A stretch of 64,000 nucleotides of DNA from Hyalella azteca (lineage: Eukaryota > Arthropoda > Malacostraca > Amphipoda > Hyalellidae). The position numbers and the translations under genes are program-made. The stretch lies in the NCBI RefSeq assembly GCF_000764305.2, contig NW_025944972.1, positions 1-64,000 of the forward strand, written 5' to 3'. The notes beneath the pieces were generated by a model, which ran no database searches, was not told where the DNA came from, and was given only the letters and a program-made list of their open reading frames with translations. Positions 10,644 to 47,200 of the stretch are shown in pieces. Numbering within the stretch: the first letter of the stretch is position 1; each line of letters starts with the position of its first letter.

Positions 10644-11226
10644 AACCAAGCAGCGGCCCAGCTTCGCGCCCCCACACTCCTGAATTGCTCGATAAAAACG
10701 GGCAAGAACGACACGACCCTGCAGCGGCGACAACACTCTATAACTCTCCCATCGTGTACAGGAATTGCAATAGCAGAAATATATCAGAGTCTTCTTCTGA
10801 TTTTGGACCCGAGGATTTGTCCTTACAAGAATGTGATTCCAGAAACACAGTGAAAGACGAGTCAAATTTTACATATAAACAGAAAATTGCAGGAGACCAA
10901 GCAAACCCACAGCGGTCCTTTGAAGACCAAACAAAAGTGGGATTTTTTGCAAACAAACCACATTTTGTTGAAGAAAAATTCACTGACGGTCACTTGAATA
11001 ACGTCGGTCGTGAACAAAGCTCAATTGAAAGCCGAGCTCAAGTTGAGATCGAGAATTCGAGTCGAGCTGAGACCGAGAACTCAAGTTCTCTCGACAGGCA
11101 GGAGAAGGAAGAGCAGGAGAAAGCCCTCGAACTGCACATCCAGCAGCAGATCCTGCGACACCAGCAGGAGTTCCAGCGGCACCATCACAAGCGCCAGTTG
11201 TCTGCTGGAGGATCATCTTCGACCAG
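10644..11226 (+). CDS. Apc: APC exon 1 (first exon recognised), N-terminal region
   Basis: Acceptor follows a strong pyrimidine tract (ttttctgttgcag); the exon begins with the last two bases of a codon, so an upstream coding exon must exist. It encodes a polar, Ser/Glu-rich stretch and then a Gln/Glu/His-rich helical segment near its end (around ELHIQQQILRHQQEFQ), plausibly coiled coil. It ends in phase 2 at a GT donor after ACC AG, and the next exon supplies the G of AGG. This sequence is poorly conserved; the assignment to APC rests on the phase chain into exons 2-3, which match the APC N-terminal pattern. The AUG that starts the protein is not in this exon. Confidence 0.75.
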
Positions 11227-14200
11227 GTTCTTAACATCATTTTAATTTTTTCTGATATTATTATTTTTCTTATTATTATCATTTTTATTTTTTCTGATAT
11301 TATTTTCGGATATATTAGCACTCCAACCTACACATTGGACACTCATTTAAAATTTATGATGTTGCTGATAAATCTTTTGTCACAGAATTGCTGCGGTTAA
11401 TAGTTGCTAGATCCATGTCGGTAATGAATCACTATTTTCATACCAGAAATCAGTTCACGCCCTGTAGGATATAATTTCCATGATCAATATGATGATTAGC
11501 TGCTAGTATTTTTTTGATCCGGCTGATTTATAGACGTTGTATTGAATATATTATACCAAAAATTTCCGCGCGTGGTTAAAATTTTGTTCCGGTCTGTACA
11601 GATTATTCAAATTGTACCACTTAAAGAAAATAGCTAGCGCATGTGTATTTTGGGAAATAGAATTGGCGTGCATTGATTTGTGTGTACAGTATATATCGTC
11701 TTCGAGATATTGGAAGTAAATCACCACGTGTAAATTTAATTGGACCTCATCCTTTTGATGTTGCATTTGACCTCATTCGTTTGATGTATTGAATTTCTGA
11801 AAACAATTTTTTTTATCTTTTCGCCGCGCTTAACGTAATATGTCACTGCAGGATTCATAACATAATATGTCACTGCAGGACTCAGAGACGGCCTATAGAG
11901 CGCGCGTGGCGGTCTCTGTCTAGACCCTCCTTGCCTGCACCACGCGCCAGCAACGCTGAGCTGCGCCAGCTCACTGACTTCGCTCTTGATGATCCCGCTG
12001 AGATAGCTGCCTTCATTGCCACCCTCAGGAAGGAACGGTCAGCGCTGTAATTAGTGATTGCATTTTTACGACAAACTCTCTGTTTACTACGTCAATTACG
12101 TCGTGATTTCTATTTAGTACGATAACAGCGGCGTGGTATAATGCAGTTTTTACGTCTTATCTTATTTCTACTTCTTCTTTAGTTAATATGAAGTTAGTGT
12201 TATAAGTGCATGTTACTAAATAACATAATTTTCGTGGCTATTAACAAAGCACCATGTGGTGTGATTGCAGGTCCCTATACGTGAATAGCGTTTCTAATGC
12301 GGTGAGAATAGTGGTGTGGTATGTTGTATCATATTTCTACTGTTTCTTCAGTTAATATGAAAATCAATGTACGTTACTGAATAATATAATTGTCATGGCT
12401 ATTAACAAAGCAACACGTGGTGTGGTTGCAGGTCCCGACTGTTACAAGAGATCGAGAGCGAGGAGTCTGAGCGTGGCCTCTACAACGAGCAACTCGACGC
12501 CCTCACCGACCGTCTCGCCGAGCTCGCTGCTGCCGGCAGACATCAGGTACGTTGAGGCCATGGTTGAACTAAAAATATATTATATAGTATTATGCAGATG
12601 CTCTTATTCGTGCACATTTTCTAGCAAATTTATTATCCATGCACGCATTTCCGTAACACTTGTTGTGCATGTTTAGAATTTTACAATTTAAAATATTTCC
12701 ACAATTTTTAGCGTTTTCATTTCACTTATTTTTAGCGCATTTTCTCATTTATGGAAAAAAAACGCTATTGTCGTCGTCATGTCCATGGTTGAACTATACA
12801 AGGTTGACCCACGAGGATTCCCGTCTTTCAGTTAAGATTTCTTCTTACGTCACTGAGATCGAGAAACTTTAACAATCCCTTCATTCCCATGACGGATTGG
12901 TTGACTGGTTTGATCGCATTTCGGTAATTGGTTAATGCCCGTGACGTCACTGAGATCAGTGACGTCACAGGCGAACAACGAACTACATCCGCAAAAATGA
13001 GCTTCTCATGGGCCAACCTTATACTAGTTCAACCATGCGTTAAAGCTGTTCAAGCTGCAATCAGAGATATGAGTGTATTATTGTCCAAGTAGCGATGCAC
13101 TTTTTTATTTCTATGTGTAAGTAATACTGACCGAGTTTGGCCCGGTAAAAGGGCGTGTCAGTGCTACGTTCGTTCTCTGCTCGTGATGTGGGTAAGAAAG
13201 TGTTTCACTATTTGGAGAAGGTGATCAAATTATGTTTATGAGTGTTGTGCTTACTTGTGGCTTTTCATAATAAAGCCTTTGTTATGATTTTGTTTGAGAT
13301 CAGCATCGAAATTCGACGGCGCGGACATGCATTGCCAACTATACTGTCTTGCTTTAGTGACTTCATGTTTGCATTATTATAATATTTCAATAACACCGGT
13401 TAATTTATTTGTGCAATAGTTTCAGTTATTTCGATAATATGTTATTGTGGATTAATTTTTACTTTGACATCGCTTGGCCATCGCCCATATCTGACGGACG
13501 TCAGTCGAAACTTATTCCGCTAATTATCACGGTAATGGTTTGGTCCCAGTAATTGATTCTACGTCGTTTAATTTTCTTACGACAGTTTCCCATCGAGGGC
13601 GTGACGTTAGCGCTATCAGAGCGCTTGTTTGCTCACCGATTTGCGAAATGCTTTGCCAAGCAAACAGAGTGTCTGTCTGACGCTCAGATGTCCCCCCGAA
13701 GACAGTATATTTCTGACGCGCCTCTTAAGCGTATTAATTTTAGTTCAGTCATCCCGAGAAGCTTCCTCTTAACTTGCGACGTCGTGTAGTCAATTCACTA
13801 TACGAGTTATATTAATTGGTTGGTGTCGAATTGATTTAAGTAAGAACTTTTATTTAATTAACCCTGTAAATATAATTATAAATTTTTGTTTACCTATTTC
13901 AGTATTTCAAGGCTCTTTTTTTCGGACAATGTGCGTCTATATACCCGTAATTTATTTGGATGGAATATTTATTATTTTCTACTTTCGTCGGTATGCTTTA
14001 TTCATATAAGAAAAACGAATGCTAGCCAATGATGTTTGATGTCCCTAGCACTATTGCATCGCTTCGTGATGTCGCTATTCATTTACGCGCAGCAAGTCGA
14101 CTGTTCTTTGACTGTTTTAAACGTGCATGGTAACAGCTACACTGCATATCTTACAGATTCATTTTGAATGCTATGGTTAGGCAGTAAAACGCATCGTATA

Positions 14201-17200: not shown

Positions 17201-20200
17201 TGGTCGAGGATTGATTACGGATTTACGGAAGTGCAAAATGCAGTGGTATGTTGGTTGATATCTATTATTGGCGCGTGCGGGGCTTATCAATTTATTTGCT
17301 CTCTCCTTTCTGATCCTTTCTGAAATGGAGAAGACTTCCAAGTCTGATGCTAGCGAATTAATTTGTTAATTATTTCCCGTAATTCCAAGTCTCAAACTTC
17401 AATCCTACTTGAAATGCAAGCGTCGTGAAAGGTGCTGCCCTAAACTAACTGATAATTTCTTATTTCTCTAAATAGGTGCGGGTATCAAATGGAAATGATA
17501 TGGTAGTTTTAAACCTTCCTGCCACCGTTGCTTCGCCGGTGTAAAGTGAATGAAAGGATCATAAGTATATGCACGGCATTCATTTTTTGCTCATTGGTTA
17601 GTACATGACTTAGTTTTTGGTCTCTTTGCCTGTGGTTCCTCCTGTGGCGCCAGGAATATCAATAAATAGCCTTACCATTATCCGACGCTATTGATCTTCT
17701 ACGAGAAATTATAGTGTCGTTAATTAACCCTACACCGTCACATGAACGAGCTTTACGAGGAACTATTGCTAGGGTATAGCAGCTAGGATGGCAGCACCCT
17801 GTATAATGGAGCATTTCGCACCAAGTTCAATGTGTAGGGTTCTTAGAAAATGTATCCCATTAAGCCCTAATTATTTCAATAAAAATCGGAATAGGATTGG
17901 ACTGGCAAACTGTGAAATTTACCCTATTGCCCTTGCACTGAAGCCTTTCAAAAAGCTAAAGTGATAAGGTCTTCAACATATTTTTATCACTAGATAATGA
18001 AAGTAATTTTTTTCGAAACAAAAACCTAATGCGCATATAGGAAGTGTTAAAAAATTGTATCAGTATTTAGGAAAAAACTATAAGATGTCACATTCCAGTC
18101 AAATATTAATCCTATCACTCGCACTCGCTCTTAATCTCATGCAACTCGTCTCACGGGTCAGGTCTCAATGGAATTCGTGAAGACTATTCATTAGCGAGCG
18201 TCATAAAGAAGGCGTGTCTTACCGATAAATATTTGGCCTTCTTTAATTATTGCCGAACACAGAAGGCAATTGTTCGTAACAGGGAAATGTGTATCTTATT
18301 TGGCGTCGCTTGAGAAAAGCGCAAACTTCTCCATGATTTATTATTCGAATTTAAGTTGAACGGTGTTACCTGGCATATGGTGAGCTCCTGATCGGATTCA
18401 TAGAAGACAGAACTGAGGTTGGCAAGGTCGACTTCAATACTACCATTCAAGAGGCGGTATAAATTGAATTAAGTAGTCCGAGGGAACCTCATTTCTCTAA
18501 CTGGTCTACATTGCAGACCGATTAGTCCGCTATCTACCGACTGTAACTCTATATTCGCTTAACCTGTTAGTGTGAATAGCGTTGACAACGGTTAAAATGT
18601 CTGTCGACAGAAGCTTGCAATGTGTCGATAAGTTTTTGGTTGTTTTTTTAATACTGAAATATTGCTATTTGAGAGCAACAAATTGTCAAAAAAATACAAA
18701 TGAAATGAAAGGCGCTTCAAAAAATCACCAAGCAATGCCATCGAAATTGTGAAGTTCAGATGTGGCAAAATGGCTTTATATTACTATATTTCTCAAGTAG
18801 ACATTTTTATTAAGGTAACCCGGGCAGTCGCAATGTCTTAATCAATCTCAGGGTACTTATACCTTATGCCGAAAAAAAATCTGATTGACCGCCTAAAAGA
18901 CACAAAATCGACCTTCAAGTTTGAAACTTGTGCGATAAAGAATAGGCCAAATTCACTCCCGAAGCCAGCAACGGCAATGTAAAGTTACCGGCTTGAGACC
19001 GTGAAGCTAAGTAATGGCTTTGCAACTAAATTCTAATAATTATTATCAGGGCTTTTTTCTTTTATTGGGCTCGTGGTATTTAGATTCTCCTACTTACTAT
19101 TTTCAATGACGTATTACTTATATAATAAATTGTAATTGCTAACAGCTCAGTTGTATAGTTACATTATTTTAACTTTATTCTCCAGCTGATGTCCCAAACC
19201 ACGGGGTGTGCATTCAACTTGGCGGCGGTGCCACGGATTTATTATCGTTGAATTATTGTTGTATTACAGCGGAAGTTCCAGTATTCGTCACTGTTTGTAA
19301 ATTTGTGATTCTCATGCTTCGTATCTTTCGCATCTTTTCTCGTTATTTTGTTAATGCTCACGGTAGTTAAAAATTACTTCCTCATAGCTACATTAAAAAT
19401 TTTGATACGATGATCTTGCATTACGCAATCCATGCACGTCCTAATTAGAAATAGAAGTTATTTGAAAAAACTCCTAAATTTAGTTGTAAAATATGGATCG
19501 CAATCCATGCACGTCCTAATTAGAAATAGAAGTTCTTTGAAAAAACTCCTACATTTAGTTGTAAAATATGGATCATAAAATACCAGGTTTTATTATCAGT
19601 GCTACTCATTGGAATTTTTAACTCCAGACGAACAAGTTTCACATTAAAGACAGAGTTTGACGTATGCCCTTGCATCACGAGTTTCTCGTCCCTGTCGAGG
19701 ACATGCGTATATTTAGCGACATCTGCCCTGACGCGGTATTTGCTACGTCTGCATGCGTCTGCCAAGGTCGGCTGCCTGTCAAGTTCATCACAAGGCACTT
19801 GAAACTCACACTAAAAACCATATGTTGCATTCCATTCTTCTGGTCATGTCGGTCACGAGTCTGTGATGTTTTCATTGATAGCTTCTATTTAATTGGTTTG
19901 AACTATTTGTGGACAAATTTGTCATCTCTATGATTGATTTATTCATTTGCTGCATCTTGTTCTGTATTTATTGTGTGCTTTTTACTCTCCGAAAAGAATG
20001 GACGAAATAGAAGAAATCAAAAGTAGTTCCAGTTTATCTTTAATATCACAATTTTGAACAATCTTTTGATGCCTCAATGTCAACAACTTTCTCGAATGAC
20101 GAGATATTTCGATAAGTTAATAATTCTTAATCTAAATTTTCGAATTAGTTTTGTTTGGATTTGTGAAATGAATCTCCTGCATCATCGAAACAATATTATG

Positions 20201-23200
20201 TATGGGTAAGGTATAAGCGTGGCATCACCAGCAATGATGACAGCTAGCGAGAATTTTGTTAATTGCTCGAACTCGCCTCGTGCCCGCAAGCAGAGATATG
20301 GAGACAAAATATCGACCCTCAACCATACCAAAGTCGAGGAATCCGGTAGAAGTTGTCGCGCAAACTTCCACTCATCTATGTCATCCCTCAGTAGTCCTGT
20401 ATCCCGCGCCAGCAGAATAGGGGCAGACTACGAAATTTTGGGGGTACGCAGCCGCGATAGCTCAACATCTGTTGTTCACGAAAGTACCACTACGTTGGCT
20501 GAATCTGCTAACGCCGTTGATAAAAATTCTGATCGAACAAGAGGCCATGACAGTCCTCCGTTACCTATCAAGCGTTCTGGTGGCACGTCTGTCAAACGTC
20601 ACAGCTCGCACAGGTCTACAGGCTCTGAGGGCAGTGGTAGAAGAATTAAAGTTAGACAGTCGCCAGCGGCAGCTACTTCTTCCCATGTCAATCGGAGTTC
20701 AGAGACTTCTAAAATCCGTATTAGCCACGATTGTGAACCGCCAAGTCGAAGTAATGGTATTATTGAAATGGATCATAGCACTAAAAAGGGACGACCAGCG
20801 TTTCGTGATCAAGATGCCTACTCCCGGAACATCATTTCAACGTCACCATCGCAAGAACCTTCATTTATCGACTCGGCCTTTGGAGCTGGCGCAGCACTGC
20901 TTAGATTAGTGATGCCAAAACCTAAAAGGTTATCCAGCAGTCCACGTGTGGAACCTTTAACTTCTCAACACATAATTTCGACTTCTCCTCAAAAGGAAGT
21001 ACCGCCTTGGATGCAAGAGGGCCCTCCTCTTCGAAGAGCACCCACTCCTCCTGGTGTCAGTCTGTTCGACAACATCTCTGTCCGGAGTGTGGGCAGCAGT
21101 CTTGCTGGTCACACGTATGAGATGGTAAACTTTCATTCTGCAACTGAAACACCGACACTGCCTCTCTTATTTCCCATAAATCGTGAGGATGATCAGCAAA
21201 CGCTTCTTCGGCCAGCTATGGATTGCGATGCCATCGCTGATGCCATCTGCATATCGCATCCTTCTTCGAGAAAAACTTCCATACGCCGCAAGAAAATCAA
21301 ATCAAAAAGTAGAGGGACTCTCACTGATGAAAACATTCGTGATCTCAGCATCGCTCTGAGTTCGCACGCTCTTGATAAAAATAATCACGTTCAGACTTTA
21401 ACACCTGATGACGCCATCGCCGACATGCAACGGGGCTGCATTTACTACGTGTCGAACGAAGGAATCGCTGTACCTGACAGTGTCTACTCCATTCCGTGTC
21501 CCTCCCCCGCGGAATCCCCATGTCCTACCCCTCCGCAGAGAATTACATCGCTTTATTTTGAACTAAGTGTATCTTCTAAAATTCCCGGCGAGTGCAACTC
21601 GGGTAAAATAATGACTGATTCTCCATGTAAACTCCCCCCTACGAACGAAGTCGAAAAGTGCACAAGTGACAGTAGAAATGTACGTGAACCAAGTGCGAAA
21701 ACTATACTGTGTCAGAATACAGCTTCCCCAGACTTGGGACAAACTTCCTCTAGCATATGCAGTGTTTTTGGAGAGACGCTTGAGAATCGTCTTTCGTCAT
21801 CTAACATGCAGCCACCAGAAGTATATAGCGACACATTGAAAAGTGAAGGACCTAATCATCCTGTGTACACGTCGACTCCTGCTTGTCTCGCTATGTATCC
21901 CAGTTCGGCCGAGGAACGTAGACGACTCAGGATGGGAACGAGAAGAGGCTGGTCTTTTCCTGTTCAACGTTTGCATGCCAACGCAACGTCGCCTCGTGAA
22001 CCTTCGTCCTCGTGCATTGCACTCAGTGCTGCGTGCATCTCAACTCCATTCAACATTCAAAAAGCCAACAAAGACGATTTTTTAAACAGCAAACTTGCCA
22101 GATTGACCCAAAAACAAGTCGCTCGGAAGCTTGATAGATCGCAGTCTCTTGTGGACCCTGTTGAAGATTTTAAAAGATTTAGACCTAATATTCCAGCGGT
22201 CGGTGGTCCTTCTCTGCGTCAATCTTATGTCCAGGTAATTAATTTACTTGCTACTTATCTATTGCAAGTCTTTATTTCCTTTATAATGCAGTATAAATAT
22301 CTCCTTGTTGACTATAGGGTTTCGTTTTAACCCCCACCGCCGTATGTCACTCTCCGGAAACACAACTTTCAATTTAAATTATACGTAAACTATTGAGTGT
22401 AGCAACCTGAGGACGTTTGTACGCAACAGAGAACCTTTTAAAGTTAAACTTTCAACTTAAATTATACGTAAACTATTGAGTGTAGCAACCTGAGGACGTT
22501 TGTACGCAGTAGAGAACAGAGAACATTTTAAAGTTGTCGTACGTGGCGGCAACCATCAGTGCAAGTCACTTGGCGCTCAACAGAACCTATCCTTTTTGGG
22601 AAGTATAGGCATGTGAAAATATTGCTCCGGTTACTCATATCAGGCGGTAGAGGGTTAAAGCCTGAATTTCAGCAACGGCTCATTAACAGCAATAGGCACT
22701 GGAGACAGGATAAGTTAGCCTTGAACTTTGTTTTTGACTTAAGGTTTTAGATCAGATATATTTGAAATTGTTATAAGGCTAGCCTATATTCCATTAAAAA
22801 TGAGGCTCAGCGAAAAGGTACAAAATTCAACGATCGTCTGCGATAAATAAATTAGTGCAAAATTTAATGTATCAACATACGGTCTCCGACATACGGTATC
22901 ATCGTTTCTTCCTTCATGTGCCTATCCGCGGTCGTGACGTATTTCGCGGTACCCACAAAGTTTAATGAATGCATCCGCGACGAAGCGGGCGTGGGCGCGG
23001 CAGCGGGGCTTGGCCACAGCCGCGGATATGCGCTCGCCAACTGACGGTGCACTGTGCATCGTGTGACTGTACCTGGCGCTGGTGTACATGATAGACGTGC
23101 TGATGGCTGTACTTGGTACTGGTGTACATGATAGACGTGCTGATGGCTGTACCTGGTACTGGTATAACTAACAGACGCGTTGTTGGCTGTGCATGATGCT

Positions 23201-26200
23201 GGTATACCTGACAGACGCGTGCTGGTATAACTGACAGACGTGCTAAAAAGATGTTACCTCCATAGCCGTTAAGCAGGCATGACATGCAGTCACTGCCTAT
23301 CAGCGACTTCTCGCACGCTGCAGTTCACGACTTAGCGACATTTGTTCTCCTAGCGCGAGTTGTAACTTTCTAGCTCTTTCGACGTTTAGTCTCGTGCCTG
23401 TGCTGATTTAGGGAACTGCATTCCTTCTGTTCACTATTAATTCTTACATGTTAATCTTTGCATCGTTCATTCGTCGGATGAATTAGTAGTTTATTACAGT
23501 TTTTTGTGTTTTGATTGGAGTCCTCTGGCCGCTGTATACCGTGTAGACGACGGCGTTAGAAATTAAATATTTAAATATATATGCTATCCTCAGTTCATGA
23601 TCATTATTTTGTTCATGTGAATTCGTTTAATTTTTAGACGGGGGTGTTCGTTATTCCTTCACAGAAGAAGAGATGCCAGGAACGCGCGTGCTCCGACTTA
23701 GGCTATTCTCACAGTTGTGACGTAACTAGAGTTCGTTCATTTTTTAAAGGGTTGTCATCATCAAAACGCTCGTCATGAGCCTCTCGTGTGTACTAGTATG
23801 AGCTAGACTAACTGCAAATAGTTTGACTTAGTTGAGCAGCGGTGCATACAAGGTTTGCTGCCAACTTGCCCGCTCTTCTTCTTGTTCATGTTGGCGAGGT
23901 TTAACGAAAATTTTCTCCCTAATTGGCTTATCGACTCATTCATGCCTCAACAATGACTATTGAATTTGATAATTTTCCTTAAACAAAATAATGGATAATC
24001 ACCTTAATCATCGATGTTTTTTACTGACGCATAACGCATTGAATATCATTAATTCAACTGCATTAATGGCCAGGAGGCAATTGTTCAGTGTTGCACAAGA
24101 AGACTGGTACGTACTATCACTCGATACTCTACCACTCCATCGATAATTAGTCATAGTTTTTCACCATTGTGTGCTCGCCTCAAATAAAAATCTGTGTACA
24201 CTACGGAAGAAAACAATCATGCAGTTCACTTAGTGCAGTGTTTACACTTGAGAGGTTGGCAGAGGGAGCGTCGAAGCACTTGTCCAACAACGCTCAGGCC
24301 TTCTTAAACCAGAAAAAAGCGGAGTTTATACCCATAAACTAATAATCTAATCAGAGAGAATTTGACTCGTTGGTCACTTTGATCATCATTGTCTTTGTGT
24401 ATTTAGTGAAGAATTTGCTTGTGCAAGCCCTTGTCACTCAGCAAGCATTGACGGCTCTAACTCGTTAACAGAACCTCAAGTTTTGTCCGAATATTTACCT
24501 ATAACTTTCCATCGAGTAAGAGACCATTTTTATTGCGAAAAGGAATTTGACTTGGCTTGTCTCGTCGCACAATTGGAAAAACGTCGCGTGTAATTATATG
24601 ATAGGTTGGTCGAATCAATAATTTAAATTCGCGTAGTTTAATCTTCTACTTCGAAAGTTTCGGTACTCACTGTCTCTGCACAAAACATAATTAATTTGCT
24701 CGACCTCCATTTGCGATATGATCACTAAAATAACTCAATCGTTAGATAAGAATAAGCATTATTATGAATAACAAGGTGGTGGCTGTTGCGAAATTCCTGA
24801 TCGTACGTGTTGATGTTGGGAATTGAGACGAGCAAAATGTCAACGGGGTACTTGTTTACAGAAAAATTATTCGGCTTAAAAACACCCTGACAAATTTCGT
24901 GCTTTTTCTTTTTCGGTTTCTTTACACTGTCTCAATCAAAATATTTTTATTTTATTTAGAGCTTGAAGGCAAGTTCTTTCTGGCTCCCTGAAGAATTTAT
25001 GCGTGCAACTATGAACAAATAATAGAGGTTCCGCGTTAAAATATTTGGCAAAGCTTCTTGTAGTGATGCAATCTGAACGCGCTCTACCGTGGTCCTTTCT
25101 CTGCTGCCTAGTTAATGCTGAACTGACTTGAGTCGATGTATTGTCGGTTAGCTAGAAAGTCAACATCAACAAGAAAAAATATTGCGGCTGCCTTATTACA
25201 TATAATTTAAGATAATTATTTTTGACTATTATCATAAAAATAAATATTAAATTTAATGAATATATTTGAAAGACCGGTTCACCTGATCGTATTTTCTTCT
25301 TTTTCTAAATTTTCGTGTCTGTTCCCATGATATGAATTTTACTGGTGATGTATTTTCTAGATATTTTATTCCATAACTTGAAAAATTCACATTTTTAGCG
25401 CATTTTCTCATTTATGAAAAAAATGCACTATTGTGCTCGTCATGTCCGTCCGTCTGTCTTTCCGTCCATGACTTCACGTTTTCGTCGACGAGAAAATGCG
25501 CTCTCTGTCACTCACTGCAGCGAGTACTGAGTTATATATTTGTAAAGTAATGATTTATAAAAAAAAATGAAAGGAATTCTCCCATTGATTTTCACCGTGT
25601 CATTTATTGATTTTTTTTGATTTTCACGTTTCATTTATTTGCAGAGCTCCGAGGCGCGGAGTGTGGAGGGTGAGGTGAGACGTCTGCGAGAAGCTGGTCA
25701 ACATCGACTTGGTTCTCCATGTTCAGCTTCACGTCGCCGCCACCATCGTCTGCATGCCATCAACACCATCGAGAAAACCATCCAGCGGCTCAATCATTTG
25801 CCACCAGCAGACATCATCCAGAGACCAGGTGTTGCTGAGCACCAGCTGTCCCAGTCAGAGGTGAACGCGTATGATCGCGGCTACGCCGACCGACGCGGTT
25901 CCGTGCGTTGTAACACTACAGACTCGCAAAGCACTGGCTTTAGTAGACTCACAACGTCCGACGGCTACCAAAACTTTCTAGGTAATTTCGACAACAATCG
26001 TCAGTCTGGGACTCGGTACTCGGACTTATCAGCCACAAGCGGTGAACTCACCAGCAGCGTTTGTAGTGTCTTTGATGTCAGCGGCCCTTCTCCTTTTGGG
26101 CCCACATTCCAAGTTCCGAACTCACGAAGGTCTCCTAAAAAATCATCGGAGTATATCACATCTCGTTCTAATTATCTTCAGAATTTGAGTCTGTCAGAGG

Positions 26201-32200: not shown

Positions 32201-35200
32201 GCTTGTCGCGCTTCTCGTCCATGTCGTCCATCTCGAGCGGCGAGATCAGTGCCGTCCACGAAGAGTGAGTCCTGGGACCCGGGCCTATACTTTCAAAAAA
32301 TATAACTCAGTACTCACTGCAGTGAGTGACAGAGAGCACATTTTCTCGTCGACGAAAACTTGAGGTCACGGACAGACGGACGGACAGACAGACAGACGGA
32401 CATGGCGAGCACAATAGCGCATTTTTTCCATAAATGAGAAAATGCGCTAAAACGGTAAGAGATCGTATGTTCATGAACCAATCATTGACGGCCTTTCAAG
32501 CAAAATCCACCAATCATGGACAAGAAAATAGAGCGTATATACTTACGTTCACTTAGCGATTTTTGAAAGTATGGCCCCCTGGTCACTATTGTATTGTTAT
32601 ATTAAGTGGGACTGAGACATCATCAGTCACGTGATGACTTTGAACCACTTTACTTAACAGGTTCATGAAAGTGATCACTTGCTCTTGGTTTACTAGACGA
32701 AATATGACCATTGTTGACTGGGCCTAAATGCACGAAGGGACTTAGCATTAAATAGAAATATTTAGTGTTCCTAGTAGTCTAGTTTTCTTCCACCTTTTAA
32801 TAAGTGTTTAGTTATTCCTTAATGTAGCTGTAATGTACAATGGTTAGGCCTACATCCAGGAAGGAACTTAGCATAAAATAGAAATATTGATTGTTCCTAT
32901 TACTTTTCCACCTTAAAATAAGTGTTTAGTCATTCTTTAATGTCGCTGTAATGTACAATGGTTAGGCCTACATCCACGAAGCAACTTAGCTTTAGAAATA
33001 GAAATCCTGAGTCTTCTTAGTACTCTTCCACCTTTTAATAAGTGTTTAGTTATTCTTCAATGTAGTGGTAATGTAGAAGTTAATTTGTGTGCAGGGAGCT
33101 TAGTTTTTTTTTTAAATATTGTTGTAATATAGAATATAATTTGTGTGCAGGGAGCTGGAGGAAGACTCGGACCTGCAGGAGTTGGTGCTGGCGGAGGGCG
33201 AGCGCGTGGCGGCGGCCGCTGCCAAGGCCGCTCAGCAGGCCTCGCCTCAGCACTCTGCTGCTGACACGCCTGCACCTCATATGCACCATGAACAAGGTCT
33301 GTTAAATAAACTATAAACTTAAAAGCAAAGAAAACTCCACAAAAAGTCATAGTATCTTTAAAGAAAACGTTTCGGAGTCCAACTCCATCGTCAGTCCTCA
33401 TAATCACCATGAACAAGGTCAGTTAATTAAACTAATAACTTATAAGCAAAGAAAACTCCACAAAAATTCATAGTATCTTTAAAGAAAACGTTTCGGAGTC
33501 CAGCTCCATCGTCAGTTCGAAAATTCTAGAACACAGATAAATCAGTGATTAGTACAGTCAAGATTACAAGAAAATACATACGCTGTAAAACCTACTCAGT
33601 CAAGGTCAGTTACTGTTGATTTACAGACCAGAAGTGACCAAAAAGGCTATTCTAGACATAAACTACGGCTAATTAAATATATAGTATATAGACTAGACTG
33701 ATAGTTGAGAATTTTGATCGTCCGAACATTTGGTTCAAAATATGCTCTCAAGCTTGAATTCTTCGAATTTCAATCAGATTATAGATTATATTAGGCAGAG
33801 CCTAGTCCATGGATCCACTTGTAAGATGCCAAGAAAGATTCAGAGTAGCATGACATAGGAGTAACAAGATTTGTTGACATTGGATAATCACGCGTAGGAT
33901 AAATAAACTCACATTAACTCACATTATTATTTGCATGGTCAGAGGTGAGCAGGACAAGCGTAATAAGGCGAAAACTTTACCTTATTCACAATTAGAAATT
34001 GGTCCTTACACCCGCAAGTAGAATAGGATTAATTGAATTTGAATTGGTATGAATAAGTCACCTGAGCAATATAAGAAAAGAATATACATTGATTGTTGTT
34101 ACGAAGCAGAATTGAAGTAATTGAATTGGTATGACTAAGTCACCTCAAGAATATAAGAAAATGAAAGATATTTTGGTTGTTACGACAGACAAAACGTAAT
34201 TGAATTTGAATTGGTATGAATTAGTTACCTCGGTAATATTAGAACCGAATATACATTGATTCTTGTTACGACGCAGACATAACGTAATTAAATTTGAACT
34301 GCTATGAATAAGTCACCTCGGTATTATTATAAAACAATATACATTGATTGTTGTTACGACAGACATGAAGTAATTGAATTTGAATTGGTTTAAATATGTT
34401 ACCATAATAATACATATAAGAAAATGAAAGATATTAATTTGTTGTGACGACAGACTGGTCAGCAGGCGCGACGCCGCTGATGTTCTCACGCACGACGTCG
34501 CTGGGGTCGCTGAGCAGCTGCCCTGCACCGCTGCCCCAGCACCTCGACGACGCTGGCTCCGTCCTGTCTGAGTTCAGGTGTCTGGGTCGTGTTTATTTAA
34601 AAGAGATATATTTAAAAAATGTTCACAATCTCGGACTCGGACATAATATTTGGCAGAGATGTGTCAGAGTTCAGGTGTGTGGGTTGTGTTATTTTCGGGG
34701 CATGCAAATATGCTCACAGGAATCCAATTTGAATAGTTAAAAGTCAAAGTCCAATTATTCAAATGGTCCCATTTCAAAAGCAAATGATTCAAATGGCTCA
34801 AATTCAAAGTTCAATCACTCAAATAGTTCAAATTCAGATCAAGCGCCATAGAGTTCGCCAAATCAACCGCCATAGAAAGAAAGCGCAAATATTTTTTAAA
34901 CCTGACTATTTTTTCTTGTTGCCTATCGGCCGATTATAGTTTAATGATGAGTTAATAAATAATTATTGAATAAATAATAATGGTTAACACATAATAACGG
35001 ATAAGTAAATTACATGTTACAGTCGCCTGGCGAGCGGTGCCGTGTCTCCCAGCGACCTCCCGGACTCCCCCAGCCAGACGATGCCCCCCAGCCCCCGCAC
35101 CCTCACCCACCGCCCACCCACACATACAAGTACGTCACCCAATGCCTCCCATCACCCATTGCCTTCCTAAACATATTTATATCCTTGAGTTCATTCCGAA

Positions 35201-38200
35201 ACTGTTGATCTATATAGCTGCCTCTATGGCTAGGCATTTGATAATTATTTTGATTAGTATTAGTATATATTATTAGTATAGAATTATGTTACATGCTAAT
35301 TATAAGTAATAATGTCACTCGTTCGCTTGAATCGCAAATTCAATAAAAACTTAAAAGCAAATAAAACTCCACAAAAATTCATACTATCTTTAAAGAAAAC
35401 GTTTCGGAGACCAGCTCCATCGTCAGTTTAATTATTAGAATTATGTATTATAATTATATATTCAGTAATGAAAAGTATCATCTTGAGCAGCACTGATGAA
35501 GGCTCGCAATTGTTTATCTATTTATTATTAGCTTTTAAGTTGATGAAGATGATCTTCTTTTCGAAATAAAAGAGGTAGAACAGTCGTTTGATAATTAATT
35601 GATATTTATTTTCTAAAGTGACGCTAATTCAAGTTGTTTATTTCGAAGTATAAAAAGAAGTACAATCGTTTAATAATTGGTATTTATTTTCTGAAAGGAC
35701 GTTAATTCAAGTTGTTTATTTTGACTTTTATTTTCTAAACGGACGTTAATTCAAGTTGTTTAATTTGATGTTAATTCTATAAACGTACGTTAATTCAAGT
35801 TGTTTGATTATTGACGTTTATTTTCTGAAAGGACGTTCGTTAATTCAAGTTGTTTATTCATATGCAGACCAAGTGAACAATTCGCTGGGAGTTTTCAACG
35901 ACTCCCCGCGACAGTTCCGTGAGGAAGGCACTCCCTGTCACCTGTCACGGGGTACATCCCTGTCTTCCCTCACCCTAGACGACAGTATCATCTCATCCCA
36001 ACCTCCCTTCGCTACCAGCCGAGCGAGAGGCGATGGCAAAGACAGCAGCAACAACACCAGCACCAACACAAGCACTTGCAACAACACCAGCACCAACACA
36101 AGCACTTTCAACAACCTCAATACCAGCACAAAACTCAACAATTCCAGCACTGGTGCTAGAAATAACGCAAGTAAAAGCGTTACGCCGCGTACGTCGTCCA
36201 TACCGCGGCCACAGTGTCTGGGACAGGTGAGCTGACAATCTTCAAAATAATCATATATTGTATATTTAATATCAAAAGAAACATTCTTTTGAATATTTAA
36301 TATCAAAAGAAACATTCTTTTTAATATTTAATATCAAAACAAGCATATATTGAATATTTAATATCAAAACAATCATCTATTGATTATATAATATCAAAAG
36401 AAGCATTCTATTGAATATTTAATATCAAAAGAAGCATCTATTGAATATTTAATATCAAAAGAAGCATCTATTGAATGTTTAATATCAAAACAAGCATATA
36501 TTGAATATTTAATATCGAAAGAATCATCTATTGAATGTTTAATATCAAAAGAATCATCTATTGAATATTTAATATCAAAAGAATCATCTATTGAATATTT
36601 AATATCAAAAGAATCATCTATTGAATATTTAATATCAAAACAATCATGTATTGAATATTTAATATCAAAAGAAGCATCTATTGAATATTTAATAGCAATC
36701 AATACAAATGGTATCAATATAAATACGGGTATTAGCTATCAATACAAATGGTAGTGAGGCGACACTGTTTCCTGAGTCCAGGCTAGATGTTGCAATCGTG
36801 CGAACTACATATTAATGGTGTATGCTATTTACTTATACAAGTTGATTTTGTATGAGAACCACATGCGCTTTGTGTTCCACTCTCACGTTTCTGCTGTTAC
36901 AGTATTGTGAATTTTGCCTAATTGCTTTCGTTTCATTATATATTAGATTCCTTCAACATATCATGTTATCATTCCGTATTCCTCTTATCACATTTTCTTT
37001 TTTATATCATCCTATTTAAGCATTTTTTCATTACCGTAGTCTTAATATATATTCTACTTTAGCTTCACTCATCCACAATTCATTCATTCATTCACCATTA
37101 CCTTAGCTTCATCTCTAATGTTCATCATCTATTCATCCGTCACACTCTTGTCTTGAATTACATCAGAACCTTGTGTATGTAATTCTTGCATTTACCATTA
37201 GTACCTTAGCTTCATCTCTAATGTTCATCTTCTATTCATCAATCACACTCTTTGCTTGAACGACATCAGAACATTTAGCTTCATGTCTAATGTTTATCAT
37301 ATATTTATACACTCTTTGCATACTTGACATTAGAAGATTTAGCTTCATGTCTAATGTTTATCGTATATTTATACACTCTTTGCATACTTGACATAACTCG
37401 TCTCTCCTTGCGACTAACGTATTATTAAGTTTTTAAATGATTTGAACTCTACAATTTTTAACATTACATCGCCGTGCTTCTTGAATTTGATTCTTCAGTA
37501 AATATAACATGTTGGACTAAATGATTTGAATTAGACTTATTCAACGTTTCAACTTATTGAATTTTATTCTTCAGTAAACGTTGCATGTAAGGCTTTTCCT
37601 CTAGTTTATTAATTAATTTTATACGGAAGAGTTGCGCGTATTTTGTAGGTGAAAAGTTTATGTCTTGGCGCCATTTGATGGATGGCCTAAAACAGAGCTT
37701 TTGCGTTATAATTTATATTCTAGATTGTTATCGTAGAAAGCAGATATAATATATATAGTGACGGATGAAAGAGATAATGCATGTTAGATACATTGTTGTA
37801 TCTATCGATTGCAACATGTAAGGGCTATTGCTTGCAGCATAGAAAGCCAATCACCTATTTCTCCTTCGATTTCAGCATTGTTGTAATTTTTTTAGATACT
37901 ATTTCCCGTTTTTTATTGATAAGATTTTGTGGTTATCGTCGATTTCGTGGTTATCATCGATCGCTATCGCCTTTATTCTAAGGAGTTTATCTCGTGCGTC
38001 GCGCGCGCCTAGCGCCTTAATCGTAAGCTTTATTGCTTGTGTTGTGAAAATATCTCGTCTTTTTAACAAGAATCGAGCGACTTAAGCTTATGCGTACACA
38101 TGAACTTCTATTTTTACTTCATTGTTGGTTGGTTATAGCTTTATTCTGCTTTGACGCAAAAGCCTTCAACGAGATTGGCAAAATTGCGAAGTATGTTTAT

Positions 38201-41200
38201 TTTATTTTCATTCTGGATAGCCTAATTATTTATGAAAACGCAGCTCGAGTTATGTTTTTTTTTTGTTGTTATTGTTTAAAATATCAACCCAGTCCATAGC
38301 ATTAGTCAATGTTTGCTGGCGCTGCAAAGAAAGCTTAAACATTTAACTGCTGCTGACTGCGCATTGCTTGCAGTGAAGCGTACGTTGCATTTCCGGAGCG
38401 TTTTTGTCATCGTTGTAGGGAGCTAAGAATAACTTTGTGTGGCTTCTGCATCAGCCATCGTGCTCTCTTCAACGCCGTTTTGTGCATCTCTGCATGCGCC
38501 TTTGATTTTTATAATAGGAAGGAATATTATTTGAAATATAGTTATTACTGGCCTGGACAGCATGGCATAGAAATTTGCAGGATTATACGAACATTTATAT
38601 GAGAGTTAGGATTTCATCATACAGGCCATCATGATACGGTGAACAGTGCTCAAATTTACCAGTATTGATTTGTTATGGTTATGCAATGAAGGAGTAACGC
38701 ACGATTAACGTGCAGAATCATCGAATCCGCCTCGTCACATTCTATGGACGTTTAAATCCTTATTCGACAGTTGTGTGAGCGTTTGCATTGCGGTGCAGTT
38801 CTCTGCTCTCGTCTGCGAAGCTGTGGCTCACTGTTCTTCCTTTAATAATACGAACTATATATTTTTGATATTTTTAAGAAATTTACATTAATTTAAAATG
38901 ATGTTTCACTCTCAGTAGAAGTCTCAGTCCACGACTAAAGTAAAGCGATAAAGTTACACCGATTCTCGTAACCACCCTCTCAACGCACATTTTGATTCTA
39001 TGCAGCCCTCGTGCAATGATCTCTCTTCTGACCCTCTATTATCTATTGTTATGAAAGATTTATAGCATAGTTATCTGTCAAAAAATGAAAAAACTATTTT
39101 GCTCTATAATTTAATTACGATGTTCTATAGAAACAATGAAGTGTAGAAATGGCCGATTTTATTGATCTTCTCCCAGTCATGTGAGGGCAGTAGCGAGGGC
39201 AAATGAATGTTAATTAACGAAACAAAATTTTTCTCACTTCCGCGTATTTTGCCGTGAACCAAGTACATTTGCCGTGAACATTGCGTATTTCGCCGTCAAC
39301 CAAGTAATTTCTGCCAGAAAAAAAAAAAACGACAAATTGACGGTGCGTTGGTGGTAGTTTACGCTTTCTGCGCGGCAGGACCGAGTGATTCCAAGTCACT
39401 GAAGTTAGTCGGCAGCAGAGTTTACGCAAGTGCGGACGTCGGGACTTTGTTCCTTCCTGTGAGTGTTGCGTTCCGGTGTGGCGATCCGCAAAGGAACTTT
39501 GCTAACGGTAGGTTTTTGTGCGCCCGTTACGATTTACTGTCGTTTTATGCATTCGGTGATTCACACGGCTGCCGTTTGGACTTTTCAAACCTGTAATTTA
39601 TGATTGAAATTAATTGCTAGGTGTGTTTACATCCACGTGACATGTATAAATGTTTGAATATTGAATATTTATGTGCTGGCGCACTGTGCGACTGAGTCAT
39701 TCAATCTTTATTCAGTACAATGTTACTAGAGGTATTGTCACGCTTCATTCATAATGCATTCAAAAAGAATATTGCAATTTATAAAACACGTAAATTTTGA
39801 TTTTTGATTGAACAGGAATCCGTTTCGGGAATTTTTTTATCATTTCGGGAGTATACAAAAACTAAATCTATGACACTCAACTTTTACACTTTGGCATTTT
39901 ATAATTCGTTCCTTTGGCTGATCCAACTCGTATATGCATTGATGAACTGGAATGAGACCCATTCGTCTCTGTACTATTATGCGTAGATAAGAATTTGAAA
40001 TTGTTCTTTCAACAAATTTGGTTCAAGATTGTAAATTGAATTATCGTTGGTCCTAGTGAGACGAAGCTAACAAGGGTTACGAGACGTCGCATAAAATTTA
40101 TTTTCTGGGTAGTTTTGCTCAGCGGCTGCTAGTAATGGAGGCGGATAAGCGCTACGTCTGCTTGCCTGTCTGCTTCTTGTTGAGTGGCGCCTTACACTCA
40201 CTTTTGTGAGTTGCCACGGCCCACTCAGTCGCTGGAGTGGTGCCTTACACTCACTTTTGTGAGTTGCCACGGCCCACTCAGTCGCTCGAGTGGTGCCTTA
40301 CAGGTCCACTCAGTCGCTCGAGTGGTGCCTTACACTTACTTTTGTGAGTTGCCATGGTCCACTCAGTCGCTCGAGTGGTGCCTTACACTTACTTTTGTGA
40401 GTTGCCACGGCCCACTCAGTCGCTCGAGTGGTGCCTTACACTCACTTGTGAGTTGTCATGGCCCACTCAGTCGCTCGAGTGGTGCCTTACACTCACTTTT
40501 GTGAGTTGTCATGGCCCTCTCAGTCGCGTTAATATTACTTATTGCTTACGCGCCCATACTGCAAAGTATTACTTTACCACCGTTGTAATTTTTTCCCCGT
40601 CATAAATGTACGTCAAGTAGATGATGAACTATACGGGTGTTAGGCCCGCTCCAGGCTTGGCAGGGATTGAACAATGAGAACGCACATTTACTGGTATCCA
40701 TTTTTTTTATTTACGATGTGAATAAATGGGAACGGGGAATTCCAGTTTTTTAATTCATGTTTCTTAAATTGTTCTTAATTGATTTAAAACAATAATAATC
40801 CCGGACTCCAAAAACAACGCATGCCACTTTCAGGCAAAAGAAAGTTCCGCCTATCAAAAAATTATCTATATATTACTAAACTCCCCACATTGTTCTATAG
40901 TCACTCAGCAGCTATTATAATGCAATGAAATAAAAAATGTAACCCAGATATCTCCTTCATGTCAAAATCCATTAAGAGAGTTTTGCAATTTTGTCTAAAT
41001 TCTTGGGTGCTGTTTTAGCAATTTTTATCATCATTGCTAGAGAGATAAACTTAACCAATTATTTAAAATTATTTATTTTATGTCAGCCCTACTAAACGCT
41101 TTTTTACAGTGAGTTCAAATTTTGTATTAATTTAAAATGTTGGTTCTACTTGTGTTTTTTTAATTTTGCATAATTTAGCTTTCTAGTTATAACAAAAGGC

Positions 41201-44200
41201 AAGACAAGCCTGACAATTTTTGGGCATGGACAATAGTATAGAAGCCCCAAATTTTGGTAAAGATTTCAAAGTCCGTTTCTTCAAAATATATTGGGAAAAT
41301 ACTGAAAAATTTTTTTTTATACAGTCGTGCATAATATTAATATGCGTCTGAGAAGCTTGGCGCTGAGGAAAACCGACGCCTGGATAATTAAATCCGTTGT
41401 AAACTTGCCCAACCCAAATTCGAGTTCAACTAACCAGCTAGACTTACGATGGTGTTGATGTATATATTCCAAAGGAATATCACTGCGCTGTGAAAAATGG
41501 AACTCGTCCTGCAGTCAGCGAGCATTTCGGTGGTTCCGTAGTATATCTGTGTATTTCAATAGACTAGCAATTGTCAGCAGTTATGGCTGTCAGTTTAGAT
41601 TGGCCGATATATAGACCACAGCGCTGTAGAGCGACCGCGGTCTCCCCTCAGGCGCGTGCTGCGGTCTTGCGTTAGCATCTGCCATACGAACAACGCTGCC
41701 GGGTCTGAGTGCTGGTTAAGTCATCGTTCAATCATTACGGCATTTTAGGTCAGTCTTTGGGATCACTTATTTACTTCGAACAATCCAGGTGATGGGCTCA
41801 TTTCAAAGCGTTTCAACCCTTGCGTCCGGTGGCGTTCAGTTGAATTGGGCCCGGTGGCAATAAGTCGTATTAAAGGGAACAACGAATCTTGCCTGAATAA
41901 TTTAGTCGAGTACATATTATAAATTCACTGCAAATAGTTGACCTTTTTCGGTGCGGCACGATGGAAATTATTACATTCGCTCGTGTACGTACTCGGCGCG
42001 TTTATCAACTAAATTGGTAAATAAATTTGAATTTTCTATTAATTGGAGCGCTATGCGTTGCTGACCGAAGGGAAGAATTTCTATGCACTGAAACGAAAGT
42101 ATTGCTTAGTTTTCTATTGTATGTTTGTATAATGCACGTGCAGATCAATCATCGCCGTGATCGAGAAGCTTATCAATCATCGCCATGATCGAGAAGCTAT
42201 TCAATCATCGCCGTGATCGAGAAGCTATTCAATCATCGCCGTGATCGAGAAGCTAATCAATCATCGCCATGATCGTGAAGCTATTCAATCATCGCCATGA
42301 TCGAGCAGCTAATCAATCATCGCCGTAATCGAGAAGCTAATCAATCATCGCCGTAATCGAGAAGCTAATCAATCATCGCCGTAATCGAGAAGCTAATCAA
42401 TCAACGCCGTGATCGAGAAGCTAATCAATCATCGCCGTCATCGAAAAAGCTGCTAACACAAGGCTTCTCGTTTGACTGACAATGCTCAGCGTCGCTGCAC
42501 GAACGTATCCGATCGGCGTTCCGATGCAGAGATGCTTCATATACAGCCTAATTTTTGAGTAATGTTTAGACTCTGCTACCCGCCTCGTCGTTTATCAATT
42601 TCCATTGAACATTTCTGCATGAATAGCATTCATAATTCACGTTTGATACTATTTTGCTCGTGAATCTCCTTATTCATGACTTTGTTAATGAATATTTCAG
42701 TCATATGAAATTGAATTCTGTATGATCGAATCTATGAAGATATTTTATTACATTTTTGGTCGTATTAATTGCTTATATACTCAGTTTGTTGCTTTGTGGG
42801 AGTTCATTATTTCATGCCCGTTTCAGAAAGAATTTACTTTTTTATTATATTGCGGAAATGCAACCTGTATCTGAAATCGGTTCAGCATTGCTGCAAGTAT
42901 ATGTGTGTTTCAAATCTATAGATGTCTTCTTTAAGATGCGAATCTTTTTTTCTCAGTAGGTATTTATTGTCAAATTTGTTTTCCTAAGACTCTATTTTTT
43001 ATTTACTTCTTTTTCTCTTAGTGCTTCCTTTAAATGGCAGGGCTTATTATTTTAATTAATTAATTATTAATTATTTTTCCTGATAGCGATTTACAAGTTT
43101 GGTCTTTTCGGTTAGGTTTAAGAAACTATTGTCTTGTGCAGGTGTATTTTTTTTTTGTTTCATCGAAATTCAAAGTAATAGTGTTATTATTGCAGTTAAA
43201 CGATCGTTGTTTATATGTTGACGCATCGCAGTAGTGAAGGTTATTCGTGCGTGGTATTGCGCGTCACGGACGGAGGCTCAAAACAACATCGTTAACTGCC
43301 TTGTGAATAACTCGGCACTCATTTCTTTCTTGCAGTGCAGCAGTGAGCTTTGTTTTGGTTTGTCAGGCGTGCAATTATTTATATTTCATTCTGTTAATTT
43401 AATATCTCTTATTTTTTTCTCTTTAGTTTAGCGGACTATTATATTGAACCTTAATATGGGCGATGCAATTTGTCATGTAATTTGTTGGTCATGTGCTGGA
43501 ACCATAGCTGATTTCGTATGCTTTGAGCCTATAATATTTTTAATCGAACTATTTTTCAAAGTATCATTGCTAATGCTTGCTTACACTACAAGACGATCCG
43601 CTGTATTTAAACGCGGATATTTAAATATTATTAAGTTTATATAAATATTAAATTACATAGTAAATATTATGTATATATCAAATATTATGTTACTATGCCA
43701 TGATTGAACATTCGCATACGTTCCCGTAATGAAGAAACCTCAAAACTCGTGTTTAGTTTTCATTTTTTCCGTAATTAATATCAATTCAGCCGAGATATTT
43801 TCCAAGAAGGCACCTATTCCAAGGGCTGAACATTTCTATATATTTTTCCAAGGAGGTATTTTTTTCTATATATTTTTCTATGTTTCTACATACTTTTTCC
43901 AAGGAGGTATTTTTTCTATATATTTTTCTATATTTCTACATATTTTTTCCAAGGAGGTATTATTTCTATATATTTTATCCAAGGTGGTATTTGATTAAAA
44001 ATGTTTTTATACTGAAGAAGTGCTTGTCTGCATACAGACGCTCGAGCGACGCGAAGACTCCGGTGCGCGCGGTCAGCCGCAGCTCCTCCTTCGTCAAGTC
44101 CCCTCGCACTCCCCTCGGGGCACCTCCCATCCCCATCCCTCCACCACCCCCTCCCCCCAGGCTTAGTGGCAGTGGGGATGAGTCCTGGGGAGTGAGCAGG

Positions 44201-47200
44201 GTCTCCAACATCCCCATCAACACTGTCAACTTGCAAGTTACTACGACCACCCTCAACCTGGGACAACAGGTTTGTTATGTTATTTTAATGTACCTTTGAA
44301 CGTTTATAAAAAATGTGAATTACAAATATTTAAGAAGAGTTTTCTTACTCAATTCAAATTTTGTAATTGCATTATTATAATTGAGTCGGAGAGTTGCCAT
44401 GCACATTAAAGGCTAATTACAAACATGGCTTCTTGTAAAATTTTTTCGACAAAATGAATTTTTCAGTCAAATGTAGCAACCAATGTGGTAAAAACAGTTT
44501 ATATTCATGTATTCAATTTCAACCTGGTGCTTATAGTGACTCCCTCATATACGTCGCTCTGATGGTACTTATAAAAATCGTACAAAAACAATTGTTATTA
44601 AAAATAAATAAGATGTTAATTATCAGTAATCATTTTCTTGATAAGTAATACATTTTTTATATTACAAAGATGTTCTAGATGAAATGTAGAGTTGCTCTAG
44701 CTTGGCTTATAGTTTAAGATGTTACTGTGCCGACAGAACGAAAGCGTGGCCGGCGACACACTGCACTCCTACTGCACCGAAGACACGCCAGCAGCTTTGT
44801 CTCAGGTACGCTTGCTTCACCATCGACTTGTCTACACTTAGCATACTTGGATTCTACGTCTTTTATTGCTATAAACAGGAATAAATTTACATAGATTGCG
44901 CAGTGAAGTTTCCAGTGCAATTATGCACGAGTGATGTTGATGCTCTCTTGATTATTTTAAATCATCGTCTTGTTGTACTTGACTATATATAAAATGCCGA
45001 GTGGTAATATATATATTATATATATTATAATATAATATATATTGTATTATATAATATATCGCTATATGTAAAATGCCTGCGAAATGCGCTGCGGGAGCTG
45101 ACGCGCATAGTGAGTGGATAAAAATATATTAAATTGTGTTCGGAAATTGAGATTCACGCCGCATATGTTAGACGTCGGGGCCTTCTGCATGTCGTGATAT
45201 TTTCGGTGCATGTCGTAATATTTGTTACTGTTCGGGGAATGACGGAAGCGCGAGGCAGGGTTCAGTGTTCGCCTCGTGTACAGTATTTCTGCGTGTGTGT
45301 TTTAGAAAGTCAGTATATGTTCTGGAGTGTGGGGAGATAATGTTTTATCATCAGATTATGGCAGAATGATAAATGACGACGAATGGTTTGTTATAGAGGA
45401 ACCCACAATATTTGCAATAGTATTCATAGCATAATAAAAAAAAAAAACATGAAACTCTGTTGCTATTGACCTATTAGCACTCATTACAATTAAAAACGCG
45501 TTTGATTGTTATAGAAAGGCGACTTCTTTTCCATGTCCTTCAAATCAACTGAGAAATGTATGAAGCTTGTAACTATAAATCTATGTCGTATATTTCCCCG
45601 GCAACCGACGTGAATGGGACATAACTACAAACTATACATGGCGCAGTATGAAGTATACAATAATAATATTGTGCAGGCGGGCAGCATGTCCGACTTGTCT
45701 AACATGAGCCTGGAGGTATGAAGTTAACTATAATAATATTGTGCAGGCGGGCAGCATGTCCGACTTGTCTAACATGAGCCTGGAGGTGCGTAGTTCTGGA
45801 GGCGTTAGAGGCGCTGGGCGTCGGCCCTTCGGTCCCTCCCATGGGCTGCTCCTGCAAGGGGACAGCACCGACTCCTCTGACGCTGAAGGCATGCTCAATA
45901 GATGCATTCAGGCCGCCATGCCAAAGGTAATTATAATTTTTCTGCTTCTAACACGCTCATTTTAACTCTCTGACGCTGAAGGCATGCTCAATAGATGCAT
46001 CCAGGCCGCCATGCCGAAGGTACTTATAAGGTACTTATAATTTTCCTGGTTCTAATACACTCATACTAACCAAGTTCAAAATAGTGCTGAATTTAACTGG
46101 GTAACTAGTAATTTGGAAGAAAAATTTAAATTTTGTGTTGCTTTTTGTTGTGTAGTAATGAAAAATTTCCTGAACAGGCTATGTTATTTTTATTTAAACC
46201 TGGATCGATAAATAGAATTTCTTTGTAAAATGTGTATAGTTCTCGAATAATTTATTTCTTAGCTCAGAAAGTGAATATTTCATATTTATAACATGACCTA
46301 TATGAGATGCACTCATCGTTCGGATACAGGTTTACGCAAGTGGCTATTATTTCGCCCTGTCAGAAATCTCGTAAAAAATTCGAACAAAATTTTATCGTAC
46401 AAGAAACCTAAAACACATTTCCATTTACAGCTGAAGTCGATAAAAGGGAAGCCACCTTCTCCCCGCTACAACTACGGGATTCCTCGCAGCTCGCAACCCA
46501 GCAAGCTGCCCTCGGGTCTCCCTCTCTCTCCCTCGAGTGCGTCTGCCCCAGGCATGCCCTCGGCTCTGCCTAGGAAAGGTTCAACAGGCTCGTCGCCTCA
46601 CGCATCGCCTCGGCATCGCCCTGTTCCTATAGCCAGGGTGTCTCCTGCCTTCAAACTCATTCCATCAGAGCGTCCTGTGAACACTTCTCAGATCAAGCCG
46701 CTCGTTAACGACTCGGCAATGAAGGACTACAACGGCGAGGAGGTCAAGAACTGGGGAGCCGTTGAGGGAACTCCGATTGGCTGTTCCAACGCCACATCGC
46801 TCAGCGATCTCACTGTCGATTCGTGCGAGCAAGAGGATCACCGGAAAAATCAGGCCAGCTCTGGCCGTACTGAACGTGTGCAGCGATACGCAACTGAAGG
46901 GACCCCTGCCAATCTCTCGCGTTGTGATTCGCTCAGCTCCTTGTCCTGTGATGATGATGGAGGCCAATTGACCAGCCGACTTGCGGATGCTTCGCAGCGT
47001 CGCACAAATCAACAGGTTTTGGCGATGCAGTCCAACGTGAGCTCTGAAGAAGTGCCACGGCCCTTTAATGTGGAAGACACTCCTGCGGTTCTATCAAGAA
47101 GATCATCTCTGAGTTCCATTGAAGGCGTGAATGGTGAGACCTCAAGAGTAGCCAAGCGCGGTCAGTCTGATGCTAATGCGCCTCGAAACTTTGGAGTTGA

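Follow-up and report, generated by a model that had tools for sequence, protein, structure and literature searches.

We describe here a set of copied splice junctions in a 64,000-nucleotide stretch of the Hyalella azteca genome (contig NW_025944972.1, positions 1 to 64,000, forward strand; hereafter the window). The stretch carries a gene of 17 modelled exons that, judged from its conceptual protein, is an amphipod APC. Eight of the splice junctions in this gene have a second copy nearby, and they form a real set of mirages in an arthropod gene, mirage being the term given in lancelets (amphioxus) to duplicated intron-exon boundaries of the Adh, globin, troponin C and PGBD5 genes in two reports (PMC3087553, PMC3902484). 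In our view the copies are probably short local tandem duplications that happen to take in intron-exon boundaries. The number of copied junctions is no higher than the gene's general level of local duplication would lead one to expect.

Copied junctions and the duplication background

All eight exon edges that a first-pass annotation of the window had listed as copied nearby are present (Table 1). They comprise the acceptors of exons 2, 3, 10, 11 and 16 and the donors of exons 10, 11 and 16, with lags of 27-161 bp. The seven pairs aligned base by base are 82-95% identical, i.e., diverged at 5-18% of positions. At exon 2, the AG of the copy lies at 11850-11851 and the real exon begins at 11879. 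The match at the exon 3 acceptor begins at 12158 when gaps are allowed, and its ungapped lag of 161 bp corresponds to the duplication of about 170 bp given by the first-pass annotation, while the exon 10 acceptor is copied at a lag of 56 bp (33050-33100 and 33106-33156). The array at exon 11 crosses the acceptor by just 2 bases, at the lowest score used only, and the copy of the exon 11 donor is short (29 bases ungapped, 34 gapped) with no full head-to-tail unit. The other four units of the exon 11 array each have an AG at the matching place or within about two bases of it. The minisatellites said to begin or stop within a few bases of exons 5 and 13 are also present, at distances of 9-15 bp from these exons.

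Because a BLASTN self-comparison overlooked the 27-bp copy at exon 2 and shortened others, duplications were collected with an ungapped diagonal scan of the whole window (lags 15 to 500 bp, score of at least 14), which may miss or split gapped repeats. The scan returned 250 matches at scores of at least 14 and 231 at 15 or more; five first-order Markov surrogates of the whole window gave 2, 0, 1, 0 and 1 matches at the lower threshold and none at the higher. Within the APC gene, local duplications occupy 19-21% of intron bases versus 2-2.5% of exon bases. Junctions are hit at about the rate of intron sequence, and exon bases 8 to 10 times less. Tandem Repeats Finder (TRF) coverage is 11.1% for the window, 18.3% for the gene's introns, 1.8% for its exons and 7.1% outside the gene. 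The genome of another amphipod, Trinorchestia longiramus, is reported to contain 6.18% tandem repeats by the same program (PMC7062882), a rough comparison only as the settings may differ, and for Parhyale a genome very rich in repeats and polymorphism is described (PMC5111886). TRF also reports two-copy duplications of like kind in the interior of introns and beyond the gene (e.g., 19424-19574, 1429-1699 and 60000-60768).

Whether the junctions are overlapped more often than chance predicts was addressed with 33 junctions: the 17-exon model supplies 32, and the alternative first exon described below adds its donor. Overlap was scored when a junction lay at least 2 bases inside a match. Three null distributions (junctions drawn from all intron positions, drawn within their own intron, or rotated as an entire set) were applied at ten settings. 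At the most sensitive setting all eight junctions named above were overlapped (8/33), and the remaining nine gave 7/33, or 4/33 when 10 bases were required on each side, the exon 11 acceptor being the first to be lost. With about 20% of intron bases duplicated, the expected number is 5.6 by rotation, 6.7 globally and 8.8 within the same intron at the most sensitive setting (P 0.22-0.71), and across the ten settings P never fell below 0.22. An earlier version of the exon model gave the same answer, with 7/32 junctions overlapped at three scores and 6/32 at the strictest; in that model, 13, 11, 11 and 9 of 32 junctions lay within 20 bp of a duplication, with a lowest P of 0.058. An excess of junction overlap is thus rejected by permutation for both exon models. 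The first-pass annotation had argued that eight copied edges exceed chance, and the argument fails because the background density of duplication had not been estimated.

The scenario that we favour for these copies is as follows. APC introns would gain and turn over local duplications at a high rate, presumably through slippage or unequal exchange. A duplication that takes in a boundary would persist because it leaves one boundary complete in every case; for acceptors this is the copy closest to the exon, for donors the first copy. The surplus copy would then decay as the intron does, and selection would remove duplications that extend deep into exons.

Table 1. Copied junctions, arrays beside exons and extent of the APC gene
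Feature	Positions	Strand	Evidence
Exon 2 acceptor duplicated, 27-bp unit, two copies	11831-11884	+	TRF, ungapped scan, base-by-base alignment
Exon 3 acceptor duplicated, lag 161 bp	12212-12275 / 12373-12436	+	BLASTN self-match, ungapped scan, alignment
118-bp array merged with exon 10 acceptor copy	32721-33156	+	TRF, ungapped scan, alignment
Exon 10 donor duplicated, 121-bp unit, 93% identical	33275-33516	+	TRF, BLASTN, ungapped scan, alignment
88-bp array, five units, last unit providing the exon 11 acceptor (exon from 34454)	34030-34455	+	TRF, ungapped scan, unit comparison
Exon 11 donor copied 97 bp downstream	34565-34593 / 34662-34690	+	BLASTN, ungapped scan, alignment
Exon 16 acceptor and first 39 nt duplicated, lag 70 bp	45646-45795	+	TRF, ungapped scan, alignment, frame reading
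Exon 16 donor and last 52 nt duplicated, lag 93 bp then 104 bp	45875-46070	+	BLASTN, ungapped scan, alignment
62-bp minisatellite stopping 14-15 bp upstream of exon 5 (28330)	27764-28315	+	TRF
Minisatellites ending 9 bp upstream of exon 13 (35868)	35559-35858	+	TRF
30-bp minisatellite beginning 15 bp past the exon 13 donor	36242-36698	+	TRF
APC gene, 17-exon model	10644-50561	+	Pfam matches, T. longiramus identity, reading frames
APC exon 1	10644-11226	+	
APC exon 17	46431-50561	+	

Splicing potential, array ends and alternative explanations

The AG or GT is kept in all eight copies. When each site was scored against a profile built from the gene's other sites, with the scored site left out, the copy outscored the real site in four cases (the donors of exons 10 and 11 and the acceptors of exons 10 and 16) and did not in the other four. 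Use of the exon 2 copy would add nine in-frame codons without a stop. Use of the copied acceptors of exons 3 and 10 or the copied donors of exons 10 and 16 would give a stop or a shifted frame, and extension to the copied donor of exon 11 meets no stop in the part that was read, but the lag of 97 bp would put it out of frame. At exon 16, the copy of the acceptor region contains a 39-nt in-frame mini-exon (45677-45715; AGSMSDLSNMSLE) followed by GTATGA. It is identical to the start of the exon, is in frame at both ends and ends at an internal AG|GT. A predicted join of exon 15, the 39 nt and exon 17 would read through and drop the rest of exon 16, including the Pfam SAMP motif; unspliced reading beyond the mini-exon copy meets an immediate stop. 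The 39-nt copy lies only 31 bp from the real exon 16, which would make joint inclusion of the two improbable; a segment of this length is presumably too short for splicing. The copy of the exon 16 donor has two exonic differences, both of which leave the protein unchanged.

There are observations that weigh against a purely random inclusion of boundaries. When the arrays of each intron were kept and placed at random in that intron (four array sets with two overhang rules), the 3' ends of the real arrays proved to be nearer to acceptors than expected, with P 0.0015-0.004 over the eight settings of this window-free distance. Between 4 and 6 of the 16 acceptors have an array end at -15 to +8, versus 0.8-1.4 expected, and with fixed windows at 16 settings an array end falls close to 3 to 6 of the 16 acceptors versus 0.6-2.2 expected (P 0.0002-0.025). 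Donors taken alone show no firm clustering (P 0.03-0.29 in the distance test; 0.04-0.73 in fixed windows). The clustering at acceptors is not predicted by pure random tolerance of duplications; it is the main residue that background duplication does not explain, and we treat it as a lead, the statistic being post hoc and the gene a single one selected because it looked odd. The claim that arrays begin or stop at exon edges beyond chance, which the first-pass annotation had also made, thereby holds nominally for acceptors and more weakly for donors. Also unfavourable is the divergence of the copies, whose exonic parts differ from the originals at 6/143 positions, versus 36/311 for the intronic parts (Fisher P 0.014, seven copies). 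The gap comes from exon 16 alone (2/91 versus 10/71, P 0.005), and the remaining events show no difference (4/52 exonic versus 26/240 intronic, P 0.62). Ten bases past the internal AG|GT of exon 16, which hold three differences, were left out of the main count, and the P value becomes 0.065 if they are taken as exonic and 0.006 if taken as intronic. These figures may point to constraint at exon 16, or to no more than a constrained real exon and a young event.

The array ends bring up the scenario, offered by the first-pass annotation as junction-seeded duplication, in which exon starts seed or stabilise tandem duplication, with the 3' ends of introns as preferred sites where arrays form or stop. 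Either the acceptor sequence or transcription-linked breaks might promote duplication, or array units able to act as branch site, pyrimidine tract and AG might replace the old acceptor. Besides the distance statistics, such a scenario is in keeping with the array 3' ends that lie within 26 bp of the acceptor in 8 of the 13 array-bearing introns (of 16; most sensitive array set) and with the exon 11 acceptor, which is itself part of the last array unit, its companion units carrying an AG at or near the same place. We nevertheless consider it unlikely, for the post hoc choice of statistic and gene applies here in full, overlap counts are without excess, and a boundary that growing arrays could not pass would pile up ends in the same way. 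When identity was compared between the units of four arrays, no usable indication of distinct boundary units emerged, the last units of three of the four being of unequal length and identity being computed over the longer unit.

It is also conceivable, though improbable, that selection maintains the copies because they serve as alternative splice sites. Exon 16 would be the foremost case, since a predicted protein would there be made without the SAMP motif of that exon. The intact AG/GT signals, the high-scoring copies, the in-frame mini-exon and the low exonic divergence at exon 16 all fit such a role, and in Caenorhabditis elegans a minisatellite is reported to be enriched in introns adjoining the alternate exons of multi-choice genes (PMC4039745). 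However, at a divergence of about 9% (42/454 positions) most copies would retain AG or GT regardless; five copies yield a stop or a shifted frame; and lancelet mirages are reported to leave splicing undisturbed (PMC3087553, PMC3902484). The suggestion of selection for alternative splicing in the first-pass annotation accordingly finds slight support at exon 16, with no divergence difference at the other junctions. Its further suggestion of assembly error, in which alleles or reads are placed in tandem at repeats, fares worse. Amphipod genomes can be very repetitive and polymorphic, as described for Parhyale; the region of exons 13 and 14 may be imperfectly assembled, a stretch of two other amphipod APC proteins not being found there; and one lancelet mirage is said to have been misassembled in the draft genome (PMC3087553). 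A simple assembly duplicate is nevertheless unlikely because the seven aligned pairs are diverged at 5-18% of positions; in addition, several pairs are short (27-97 bp) and there are multi-copy arrays with variant units. We regard assembly error as very improbable, and local duplications that happen to include boundaries remain the explanation that we favour.

The APC gene model and other features of the window

Identification of the gene as APC follows from its conceptual protein, which was scanned in pieces and gave Pfam matches to APC_rep, Arm, APC_r and SAMP above the cut-offs, so that the armadillo repeats, APC repeats and SAMP motif of the family are all represented. Among the best 120 of 1964 protein matches, the highest is T. 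longiramus (93% over residues 640-1180 of the conceptual protein, in the armadillo region), the Hirondellea gigas APC matches at 89%, and crab, shrimp and mantis shrimp are among the next. These matches place the host among the amphipods, probably near the talitrids. The 17-exon model agrees with the exon numbering of the first-pass annotation. Exon edges from the exon 2 donor onward are backed by homologous proteins in a by-eye comparison, the join of exons 13 and 14 excepted, and the exon 1 donor and exon 2 acceptor are without homologue support. The exon 3 acceptor is backed, again by eye, by a crab protein (ERSRLLQEIEAEE). The exon 8 donor was set at 31548, which restores the frame. The exon 11 acceptor was set at 34454 rather than 34463 because the proteins of relatives read QEWSAG there; it was the acceptor first modelled at 34463 that made the array appear to end short of exon 11.

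Within intron 3, a 2-kb open exon on the plus strand (20234-22234) shows homology to the beginning of the APC protein of T. longiramus (MGTASDSFTSRSNSPRSKKQRY...) and is probably an alternative first coding exon spliced to exon 4. In addition, the APC proteins of T. longiramus and Hirondellea have a stretch of about 55 residues with a SAMP-like end between the parts that match exons 13 and 14. This stretch was absent from intron 13 (36227-44037) in tblastn searches with T. longiramus, Hirondellea and crab peptides, and exons 13 and 14 join out of frame, so an exon between them has been lost, has diverged strongly or was left out of the assembly.

Several further repeats were encountered. The exon 10 donor duplication (33356-33377 and 33477-33498) shares CTTTAAAGAAAACGTTTCGGAG with intron 12 (35388-35409), and part of the duplicated unit may therefore be a dispersed repeat. 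Four exact copies of AGCGCATTTTCTCATTTATG (12734-12753 and 25397-25416 on the plus strand, 32429-32448 and 55399-55418 on the minus strand), where chance would give none, probably mark another dispersed element. Outside the gene, the duplications at 1429-1699 (134 bp) and 60000-60768 (385 bp) each consist of two copies that match at 99%; they represent either recent duplications of this type or duplicates created by the assembly.

Relation to known systems and significance

According to the lancelet reports (PMC3087553, PMC3902484), mirages there are minisatellite-like tandem duplications of 5' or 3' boundaries in which many copies keep AG or GT, with units of tens to about 160 bp (about 10-160 bp). 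The amphipod APC copies are similar in lag, affect both types of boundary and keep AG or GT throughout, and at the 8, 7 or 4 of 33 junctions overlapped at increasing strictness the boundary lies within the repeat, the exon 11 donor copy not being head-to-tail. The APC case differs from those accounts in that it concerns an arthropod, involves eight junctions in one gene and has its number of overlaps explained by the background measured here; it is known from one genomic sequence. In lancelets, the copy number of mirages is reported to vary between haplotypes. No report of an arthropod mirage was found in the literature searched, where coverage of matching papers was incomplete.

Other systems of duplicated splice signals are less close. 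Intron gain through tandem duplication of AGGT (PMC3443670, PMC2891723) likewise pairs splice signals, and the AG|GT within the duplicated start of exon 16 recalls it, but the APC duplications span existing junctions rather than lying inside exons; of the eight events only that at exon 16 comes near, and its would-be intron, at 31 bp, is presumably too short to be spliced. Tandem exon duplication and mutually exclusive exons (PMC6071210) also involve duplicate splice sites and copied exon sequence with adjacent intron, the gap between the copies at exon 16 being very short; in the eight APC events only exon edges are copied and no model exon is copied whole. NAGNAG-type tandem sites (PMC2878309) similarly present competing acceptors or donors at one exon, but these are 2-12 nt apart, unlike the APC copies, which are 27-161 bp apart and made by duplication.

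The first implication concerns how such loci are read. A list of coincidences at exon edges requires a background rate, since introns of which one fifth is duplicated give this number of overlaps. There is some, fairly small, probability that the 3' ends of introns are hot spots of duplication or stopping points of arrays, and that repeat units are repeatedly recruited as acceptors; in that event mirages would be a general by-product of the co-evolution of introns and minisatellites wherever tandem repeats turn over fast, rather than a lancelet oddity. The clustering of array ends at acceptors is directly testable in any amphipod genome. Finally, if crustacean mirages are as in lancelets, duplicated splice boundaries would be a normal outcome of the quick gain of tandem repeats in introns, and they would then provide a ready supply of alternative acceptors, mini-exons and new introns.

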